NCBI GenBank assembly: GCA_902785785.1
Contig: CADAAA010000003.1
Span: forward strand, 186,001-250,000
Reading direction: 5' to 3'
Length of the DNA stretch: 64,000 nucleotides
From: an uncultured Bacteroidia bacterium
GTDB taxonomy: Bacteria > Bacteroidota > Bacteroidia > Bacteroidales > UBA932
In this document: positions 40,427 through 42,738 of the stretch, one piece after another
How the letters are laid out: each line of letters opens with the position of its first letter
Position numbering within the stretch: the stretch's first letter is position 1
Program-made: the position numbers and the translations under genes
Notes under the pieces: generated by a model
Told to the model about the DNA's origin: nothing
The model's database searches: none
What the model saw: the letters and a program-made list of their open reading frames with translations, nothing else

Positions 40427-40687
40427 GTGCGCAGAAGGGCCTTCTCCCTGTCCTCCGCGCACAAATTTCCCGTTTTTGTGCGCCAAAGGGCCTTTTCCCT
40501 GTCCTCCGCGCACAAATTCGCTGTTTTCGTGCGCCAAAGGGCCTTTTCCCTGTCCTCCGCGCACAAATTCGCCGTTTTTGTGCGCCAAAGGGCCTTTTTC
40601 CGTCCTCCGCGCACAAATTCGCCGTTTTCGTGCGCAGAAGGGCCTTTTCCCTGTCCTCCGCGCACAAATTTGCCTTTTTCGTGCGCG
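40427..40687. repeat. 51-bp tandem repeat array, five units plus a partial sixth
   Basis: Units begin with GTGCGC at 40427, 40478, 40529, 40580, 40630 and 40681 (periods 51, 51, 51, 50, 51). Each unit contains an AGGGCCTT core, CCCTGTCCTCC or a close variant, GCGCACAAA and a short variable stretch. GCGCACAAA near the end of a unit is the reverse complement of TTTGTGCGC at some unit junctions, so a 9-bp stem can form there; other junctions have TTTTCGTGCGC and a shorter stem. The array lies between the convergent ends of the lipoprotein and priA-like genes. Function is unknown. Confidence 0.9.
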
Positions 40688-40824: not shown

Positions 40825-42738
40825 TCAGACGGGATCCACGTCCAGAGTGATGTGGCCAGTGTATTTGTAAGATTTCTCGAAATCGCTGATAGTTTCGGCG
40901 ATTTCTTTTTTTCGTGTCGGGAGGCGGCGGTCTTTTGGAAGGGTGATGCGGATGACGAGGGCGTCCGGGTCGGTCTCGCGGCCGCGGCGCGGGGCGAAAG
41001 GGCCGGCGAGGGTGAAAGAGCTGGTGGAGGCGAAGCCCTTCAAGGCTTCCGCGAGCAGTCCCGACAGCTTTGCGAGCCGCCCGGTGTTCGTGTCCCTGAC
41101 GATGACATCTACCATGCGGGAATACGGCGGGAGATTGAAGGTCTTGCGCTCCTCGAGCAGGTGAAGGGAATAGTCGTCGCCTTGGAGGAAAACCGGATGG
41201 CCTCCCTGGCGGGTCTGGACGAGCATGTGGCCGGGGAGTCTGCCGCGGAACTGCTCCAAGGTCTGCATGGTCTTCTCATCCGCCCGAAAATCGTGTTTGT
41301 CCATGAGGGTATCAGCGTTCAGCAACACCAGCAGCGAGATATCGGCGATGTCCTTCCGTCGCGCTTCATTTACCGTGGCGAAACCTATATTATCCGTCTG
41401 TCCGGGGAAGACCGCTTCAACCTGTTCCTTGAGGTCGTCCATCGGTCCCCAAGGCCTAAGTATCAGCACTTTGCCTTTATTGTCAAGGATCTCGCCCATC
41501 CTTAAGATGAGGACGCGCGACAGGTCTCCGACCATTCCGCGTTTCCTGGCTTCGACAGAAGTGTCCACGATTTCCATGGCGCTTTCCTCAAGCGGTGTGC
41601 GTACAAGCGCGTATCTACCGGTGATGCAGTTGTAGAGGGATTCCAGCGAGGGGGTGGGGGAGGAGAGGAGCACATGTGCTCCGTGTATGCTCCCGAGCAT
41701 GACGGCAGAGTCGCGCGCTCCGTAGCGCGGGGTGCCGTCTTGCTTGTATGCGATGTCGTGCTCTTCCTCCACGATGACGAGCCCCAGGTCCTTGAACGGA
41801 AGGAACAGGGCCGAGCGTGTCCCAAGGATGAGCCTCGGCCTGTCGTTGCGGCGAAGGAGCGTAGCGACTTCGCGGCGGTTCCCGGCTGTCTCGGCCGAGT
41901 GGAACACGAGCACGGCGTCGCCGAAAGCCTCTGCGAGGACGGCTTGCAGCCTTTTGCTGAGAGTGATCTCCGGTACGAGCATCAGGACGCTGCGGCCGGC
42001 GGCAAGCGTGGCGCGCGCGGCCTCTACGAGGACGCCGATGCGCGCTGCTCCGCCCAGCAGCAGGACGCTCGCGCCTTTGGCGAAAGCCGCCTGCATCTCT
42101 GCAAAAGCAGAATTGTCACTCTGTTCAGAATGGCAGGCGAAGGATGCGAGAACTGTTGTTCCGGCCGGAAAGGAGGTGCCTGTCGCTTCACCATTCTCCA
42201 AAACCTCAAGTCTCCGACATATTTCGGTAAGTTCCGCCAGGATCTTGTCGCGTCCGGCTTCAAGCCCTGCCATGACCTTGGGGTTGTGCTTTCCCGCCAA
42301 TGCGGCTTCCTTTTTGGCAAGCCGCTCCTCGAGCGCGAGGATGCGTTTGCTGTAAAGCTCCGATGTGCGGGCTTTCATCAGTTCCCGACGCTCTTCCGCC
42401 CTTGCACGGACTTCCTCACCGGCGGTCTTGACGGCGGGATAGGCCATCTTGTAGACTTCGCCCATGGTGCAGAGATAGTAGTCGGCCATGAAGCGCCAGA
42501 GCGCAAGCTCCTTCTCTCCGATCGGTTCCATGTGGCGCTCCACGGCATTTACCGGAAGGACCCTGTCAGGGTCCACTTCCGGCGACACGCCGGTCTCGCT
42601 GACCACGCCGATGTATTTGCGCCCGGCGAAGGTTACGCTCACACGCGCCCCTGTCCGGACCTCCTCGGAGATCCGGTAGCAGGGCTCCCACGCAAGCTTG
42701 AGCGGCAGGATGACCTTTATGTACTGCACCTCTTCCAT
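40825..42738 (-). CDS. priA: PriA-like primosomal protein lacking helicase and zinc motifs
   Basis: A 637-residue PriA homologue: N-terminal DNA-binding domain (YIKVILPLKLAWEPCYRI, GRKYIGVVSE), helicase-like core (LVPEITLSKRLQAVL, RLILGTRSALFLPFKDLGL, DGTPRYGARDSAVMLGS) and C-terminal domain (RKTFNLPPYSRMVDVIVRD). Key residues are lost. The Walker A position reads LLGGAARIGV instead of GxTGSGKT; the DEEH box is EEEH; the motif V position reads ATVNEARRKDIADI instead of GTQMxxKGxDF; and motif VI is QFRGRLPG instead of QxxGRxGR. The cysteine-rich zinc segment between the two helicase lobes is absent. Replisome loading without unwinding is the likely remaining role, as suggested for helicase-deficient PriA proteins in Deinococcus and Actinobacteria. 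Confidence 0.85.
   Translation of the reverse strand: MEEVQYIKVILPLKLAWEPCYRISEEVRTGARVSVTFAGRKYIGVVSETGVSPEVDPDRVLPVNAVERHMEPIGEKELALWRFMADYYLCTMGEVYKMAYPAVKTAGEEVRARAEERRELMKARTSELYSKRILALEERLAKKEAALAGKHNPKVMAGLEAGRDKILAELTEICRRLEVLENGEATGTSFPAGTTVLASFACHSEQSDNSAFAEMQAAFAKGASVLLLGGAARIGVLVEAARATLAAGRSVLMLVPEITLSKRLQAVLAEAFGDAVLVFHSAETAGNRREVATLLRRNDRPRLILGTRSALFLPFKDLGLVIVEEEHDIAYKQDGTPRYGARDSAVMLGSIHGAHVLLSSPTPSLESLYNCITGRYALVRTPLEESAMEIVDTSVEARKRGMVGDLSRVLILRMGEILDNKGKVLILRPWGPMDDLKEQVEAVFPGQTDNIGFATVNEARRKDIADISLLVLLNADTLMDKHDFRADEKTMQTLEQFRGRLPGHMLVQTRQGGHPVFLQGDDYSLHLLEERKTFNLPPYSRMVDVIVRDTNTGRLAKLSGLLAEALKGFASTSSFTLAGPFAPRRGRETDPDALVIRITLPKDRRLPTRKKEIAETISDFEKSYKYTGHITLDVDPV

Follow-up and report, generated by a model that had tools for sequence, protein, structure and literature searches.

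The window analysed here is a 64,000-nucleotide stretch of a contig from an uncultured Bacteroidia bacterium (GenBank CADAAA010000003.1, positions 186,001 to 250,000), and its priA gene codes for a PriA protein from which the helicase motor motifs and the zinc region are gone. We found genes of this type to be under purifying selection, and five independent losses of motor and zinc region in the family are counted as solid. Our results suggest that PriA without its motor can still serve a function at replication forks.

The gene was first described in a sequence-only reading, made from the letters and their open reading frames, as a PriA homologue without Walker A, motif V and the zinc-binding segment, and this is borne out. 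The frame is intact over 637 codons, as that reading had it, with an ATG start, 637 amino acids and zero internal stops. The P-loop region reads GGAARIGV, the DEEH box EEEH, motif V ATVNEARRKDIADI and motif VI QFRGRLPG. Between motifs III and V there are 0 CxxC pairs as against 4 in E. coli, and the two motifs are separated by 86 residues; E. coli has 174 here, and those zinc-bearing relatives whose gene is not truncated at a contig end have 173-214. The zinc segment has therefore been deleted and not mutated, as the stretch itself is shortened. Two of the earlier claims stand only in part. Motif VI has lost its end, CGRR, but QFRGR is usual in the genus (intact relatives read EQFRGRCGRR), and the change of Walker B from DEEH to EEEH is present but mild, since it amounts to Glu for the leading Asp. 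A Pfam scan of the protein matched PF17764 (PriA_3primeBD) at 62.9 bits against a cut-off of 22.7, gave a sub-threshold DEAD match and had no match to Zn_ribbon_PriA. The winged-helix domain is also absent, and a charged stretch (residues 108-176) stands in its place, for which AlphaFold2 predicts helices at 108-147 and 153-176 with a predicted local distance difference test score (pLDDT) of 67-78 per block from residue 121 and below 50 up to about residue 118. Walker A, motif V, the end of motif VI, the four CxxC pairs and the winged helix expected of the helicase are all missing, and judged by these motifs the protein would not be a PriA if the definition includes a working helicase.

By domain, sequence, fold and orthology the gene is nonetheless an orthologue of PriA. 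All its matches in the PDB are PriA (E 1e-38), and the best fold matches of the predicted model are the PriA structures 6dgd, 6dcr, 4nl4, 4nl8 and 8fak, some of which we take to be from Klebsiella. Of the 14 NCBIfam matches, 13 are PriA models and the last is Mfd at 0.006, all of them below the curated cut-offs. No better fit to a non-PriA family was seen, PriA leading by both PDB sequence and fold. In the PriA gene tree the protein is nested among the intact PriA of its genus, and it is present in single copy. The window's genome is a draft of 2.36 Mb (96% complete, 12 contigs), and the search for a second, intact priA proposed in the sequence-only reading found none in it, PF17764 detecting one 3′-DNA-binding domain only and TIGR00595 adding three weak matches of 27-48 bits. 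Two of these, frames on contigs C6 and C4, overlap matches to the RecG model and may be Mfd and RecG; the third is a 726-residue frame on contig C2. PriA proteins sharing the features of the window protein at 74-77% identity were found in three metagenome-assembled genomes (MAGs; L002-L004), from sheep omasum, water buffalo rumen and the uncultured Bacteroidales RUG470.

In the genus sample of 61 genomes, 54 match the protein, and among these 25 (the window's included) have a degenerate PriA, 28 have Walker A and zinc, and one (G022) is too short to be decided. The counts include fragments where the motifs are visible, with G010 cut before motif V and G002 before the start of the P-loop. It is therefore not the case that all Bacteroidales keep the motifs, the finding that the sequence-only reading had named as telling against it. 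In the family sample (149 genomes) the 3′-DNA-binding domain was matched in 139 and the zinc ribbon in 118, with no zinc match in the sampled members of genera g12, g13, g18 and g22, whose members read by sequence were likewise without zinc. Silence of the Pfam zinc model alone proves nothing, because it is silent also in the Corynebacterium and Caulobacter controls. On extending the search to 247 genomes of the order that are at least 90% complete, 241 matched the 3′-DNA-binding domain and 239 the zinc model. G000, G421 and G441 have the domain without the zinc model; of these, G421 was rejected as a zinc loss as its gene looks cut at a contig end, and G441 as it has four CxxC pairs missed by the Pfam model. 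No zinc loss outside the family was thus confirmed among the 247 genomes, five of which lack both models and were not read. Co-loss of RecG with degenerate PriA was not seen in the RecG-model matches of the 61 genus genomes, which are mostly incomplete: matches above cut-off are present in 51 of 61 (22 of 25 with degenerate and 23 of 28 with intact PriA), and the sub-cut-off matches in the remaining genomes are partial genes or Mfd-like.

The number of losses was read on an rpoB tree of the family (92 genomes; quick search, LG+G4). The rpoB of G027 was left out; this fragment (L220) groups with genus g15 and probably comes from a contaminant contig. The degenerate label changes six times on the tree, all forced by starred branches, namely in the genus's main clade, to which the window's genome belongs, in G054, in G035, in g12, in g13, and in g18 together with g22. 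Only five are counted because G035 is a contaminated MAG (72% complete, 5% contaminated). The PriA gene tree (FastTree, branch support not displayed; 110 proteins including 2 outgroups, seven fragments left out) unites all degenerate PriA proteins of the genus in a single clade, in conflict with the rpoB tree, where G054 lies among the intact G003, G037, G005 and G038. A single loss shared by G054 and the main clade was rejected, as the approximately unbiased (AU) test does not accept the joint clade (p-AU 4e-7; 13 rows against 27), the group having been named after the tree was seen and the G027 rpoB and the short G004 and G046 being left out. Gene transfer at G054 is possible. Its lobe 1 is 56-61% identical to that of the four intact sisters, 59% to the degenerate G057 and 42% to the window protein, and its 3′-DNA-binding and C-terminal domains discriminate poorly between the one-loss and the two-loss cases.

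On sorting the 108 PriA proteins of the family by motif, we found Walker A, four CxxC pairs, motif V and motif VI all present in 71 and all absent from 32; L103 has an X at motif VI, and the other four are intermediates, with Walker A only in L024, Walker A and motif VI in L121, and motif V only in L130 and L131. Walker A is present in all 72 zinc-bearing proteins, and 2 of the 36 zinc-less ones still have GK[ST]. Therefore, in this family zinc goes first or together with the motor. Going by sequence length, loss of the winged helix seems to be the older event in much of the family. In 24 zinc-bearing proteins and in 17 degenerate ones, fewer than 50 residues lie between the 3′-DNA-binding domain and lobe 1, and this region reaches at least 180 residues in just 8 of 108. 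The winged helix of E. coli PriA takes about 70 residues, so that a region of fewer than 50 has no room for it. It may be added that among loci L103-L150 the winged helix is gone in many genera of the family even with intact motor and zinc, and that its place is often taken, in genera g1 and g17, by a charged stretch that can reach about 156 residues. We are evenly divided on whether PriA has here been dismantled stepwise and repeatedly, the winged helix first and then zinc and motor, in at least five independent losses, to leave an ATPase-less fork clamp of about 500-660 residues that still reloads replisomes. If that is so, replication restart would require neither the PriA helicase, nor the single-strand pore, nor PriB docking.

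Selection was measured as the ratio of non-synonymous to synonymous substitution rates (dN/dS) by the simple Nei-Gojobori method, for which the synonymous sites are near saturation. The whole-gene values of the window's priA against L002, L003 and L004 are 0.145, 0.134 and 0.193, and those of the two helicase lobes 0.09-0.19; other degenerate pairs give 0.09-0.25, and nine intact pairs 0.08-0.17, the tenth being saturated. The degenerate copies are single frames or are cut by contig ends, except that of G081 (genus g22), which is split across two frames with unread bases between. The loss thus appears selected and not that of a pseudogene, as had been proposed from the sequence, given open frames in most degenerate copies, the dN/dS of 0.13-0.19 and no second priA found. 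Between L004 and the window, dS is 0.82 for priA and 0.19-0.38 for its three neighbours, which hints at recombination of priA alone.

The residues kept through the losses were obtained by comparing alignment columns of 72 intact and 33 degenerate proteins, leaving out the window protein, L002 and L004 on the degenerate and E. coli and L005 on the intact side. Of 134 columns at least 90% conserved in the intact set, 57 keep their residue in at least 75% of the degenerate set. Examples in E. coli numbering are 18, 29, 87, 88, 90 and 93 in the 3′-DNA-binding domain; 302, 304, 305, 309, 310, 322, 328, 329, 333, 334, 338, 359, 362 and 366 in lobe 1; 567, 568, 569, 572, 576 and 597 in lobe 2; and 625, 631, 632, 635, 705, 727, 728 and 729 in the C-terminal domain. 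Below this threshold fall Walker A, D320 (67%), E321 (48%), A357, T358, the eight cysteines and motifs V and VI, and E322 of the DEEH box is invariant. In superfamily 2 helicases the kept lobe-1 motifs face the DNA and the lost motifs face ATP. In window numbering, Y21, Y87, Y88 and G93 of the 3′-DNA-binding domain and R531, P537, P538, R541, D635 and P636 of the C-terminal domain are retained in 33 of 33 degenerate proteins. Columns 371, 697 and 87 of E. coli, which presumably belong to the SSB pocket, hold K/R in 31, K/R in 28 and Y in all of the 33, respectively.

The window protein is probably an ATP-independent, fork- and SSB-binding platform on which the replisome is reloaded; we infer the absence of ATPase, the binding of forks and SSB, and replisome loading. 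In such a scheme the leading-strand end would sit in the 3′-binding domain, the fork arms and the SSB tail would be gripped by the C-terminal domain and by the DNA-facing side of the two inactive helicase lobes, and the complex would recruit DnaB or its loader to a single-stranded lagging template exposed by other means or other enzymes. The zinc-less protein would be unable to wedge the duplex, close a single-strand pore or dock a PriB-like partner, unlike E. coli PriA. PriB is a proteobacterial protein. An SSB with the tail GADDLPF is encoded in the window's genome. A second SSB-like protein (L282, contig C3 252969-253268, just outside the window) has the C terminus DDFLQYEF, without a DDxPF tail.

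Several points weigh against a reloading platform. In passages of PMC10175261 the zinc region of E. coli PriA is described as wedging the duplex, closing the pore round the lagging-strand DNA and docking PriB, and as required for PriB docking and DnaB loading; the zinc deletion may therefore also reflect an abandonment of loading here. The predicted structure is of middling confidence (mean pLDDT 65.9) and is poorest in the C-terminal domain. The same domain, which the platform needs, has a dN/dS of 0.294, 0.179 and 0.302 against L002, L003 and L004, so that it is twice the loosest part of the protein and once looser than average; short, noisy stretches apart, these are the highest values among the domains. 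In each of the three comparisons priA also has a higher dN/dS than its three neighbours. Degenerate PriA pairs diverge more than intact ones once the rpoB distance exceeds 0.10: at rpoB distances of 0.10-0.15 the median PriA distance is 0.59 in degenerate (74 pairs) and 0.44 in intact proteins (117 pairs); below 0.10, where degenerate pairs are few, there is no difference between the two. The main rival to the platform is that PriA has left restart for another task at forks or SSB-coated DNA, such as blocking polymerase access or regulating recombination, and that restart takes another route. The missing zinc region used by E. coli for docking PriB and loading DnaB, the relatively loose C-terminal domain and the charged stretch where the winged helix was would all fit this. 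But key columns of the 3′-DNA-binding and C-terminal domains are retained over five or six losses, and no alternative restart gene was identified, although none was searched for, so that we hold such a departure to be doubtful.

The faster divergence at larger distances and the dN/dS above the neighbours, together with the split copy in G081, could also be taken for slow decay of the gene after relaxed selection on helicase function. Yet the dN/dS values given above (0.09-0.25 in degenerate pairs, 0.134-0.193 for the window's priA against its three MAG relatives) speak against this, the copies other than that of G081 are single frames or contig-cut, the gene is still present throughout the main clade (14 labelled genomes), and 57 of the 134 conserved columns are retained. 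Decay is thus quite unlikely, and the degenerate PriA is better described as constrained, though less than the intact one.

Arginine is the commonest replacement in the K230 column (70% of the 33 degenerate proteins) and hence non-random, which raises the question of a non-canonical ATPase where arginine in place of the P-loop lysine, along with other residues, still binds or uses ATP. The invariant E322 and the only mildly altered DEEH box of the window protein would agree with it. However, according to parts of PMC4504706, K230R abolishes both the ATPase and the helicase activity of E. coli PriA, and the D. radiodurans PriA, which has arginine for the Walker A lysine, shows no ATPase or helicase activity while it binds forks and interacts with DnaB. 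With motif V and the last part of motif VI missing as well, a surviving ATPase appears most improbable. An assembly error, a chimera or a misassigned helicase paralogue might be thought of in a 12-contig draft whose relatives are MAGs or drafts, one of them (G027) with a contaminant-like rpoB, but this we regard as already refuted because the occurrence is repeated and syntenic: the window shares its features and neighbouring genes with three MAGs, another 24 genomes of the genus have a degenerate PriA, and sequence and fold both match PriA best.

Helicase-dead PriA is known in other phyla, and the earlier statement that such proteins keep their zinc ligands agrees with what we see. The window protein resembles D. 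radiodurans PriA in the arginine for the Walker A lysine and, going by sequence only, in losing ATP-site motifs while DNA-binding parts are kept. The zinc model is matched in the two Deinococcota controls, Thermus composti and Deinobacterium chartae, whereas in the window protein the zinc region is deleted, and motif V, the last part of motif VI and the winged helix are gone too. PriA of Tsukamurella (Actinomycetota; WP_068739079.1) is similarly without Walker A, DEEH and motifs V and VI and has a short region between the 3′-DNA-binding domain and lobe 1, but all four CxxC pairs are kept; actinobacterial PriA is called 'smaller and very divergent' in a passage of PMC1193525. The G441 protein (locus L276), from another Bacteroidales family, has also lost Walker A, DEEH and motifs V and VI and keeps four CxxC pairs, which is the Deinococcus/Actinobacteria pattern, and by its sequence would be an independent pseudohelicase of the Deinococcus type. 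With E. coli and Klebsiella PriA the window protein shares domain order, the 3′-DNA-binding domain, many lobe-1 columns, DFRxxE, the C-terminal domain and the fold, but theirs has a working helicase, a winged helix, a zinc region and PriB docking. Pseudohelicase PriA is therefore already known, and what the sequences appear to add as new is the repeated deletion of the zinc region under selection. In a literature search covering titles and abstract openings of open-licence papers, no published account of degenerate PriA in Bacteroidales was found, nor any of a repeated zinc-region deletion under selection on top of a pseudohelicase PriA. Why bacteria keep the helicase, since E. coli PriA-PriB restart does without it, is left open by the work on E. 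coli (PMC10175261). Intact and motorless PriA in sister species of one family form a natural experiment on this, in which the residues kept in every independent loss mark the core of the restart protein and pairs of close relatives offer a route to the changes in lifestyle or partner that make motor and zinc dispensable.

Table 1. Location in the window of the priA gene and of its retained, altered and missing parts
Feature	Position	Strand	Basis
priA gene, motor- and zinc-less	40825..42738	(-)	637 codons; PDB PriA E 1e-38; NCBIfam PriA models lead
3′-DNA-binding domain, kept, residues 8-101	42436..42717	(-)	Pfam PF17764, 62.9 bits
Charged stretch (predicted helical hairpin) replacing winged-helix domain, residues 108-176	42211..42417	(-)	AlphaFold2, composition
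Helicase lobe 1, residues ~206-378	41605..42123	(-)	Walker A gone, remaining motifs mostly present
Former Walker A, GGAARIGV	42031..42054	(-)	Arg occupies E. coli K230 position
DEEH box changed to EEEH	41758..41769	(-)	Motif reading and alignment columns
Helicase lobe 2, shrunken, residues ~379-512	41203..41604	(-)	Motifs, alignment, predicted structure
Deletion point of cysteine-rich zinc region	41440..41448	(-)	Alignments; E. coli residues ~429-490 absent
Former motif V, ATVNEARRKDIADI	41338..41379	(-)	Motif reading
Truncated motif VI, QFRGRLPG	41230..41253	(-)	Motif reading
C-terminal domain, residues 513-637, last residues LDVDPV	40828..41202	(-)	Alignment columns

The genes neighbouring priA, which are the same in the window and in L002-L004, were named by eye as OmpA-like, pgm and DUF1343-like. 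Just downstream of priA, at window positions 40427-40686, lies a tandem array with a period of 51, 5.1 copies and 91% matches, which carries open frames on both strands and in several frames.
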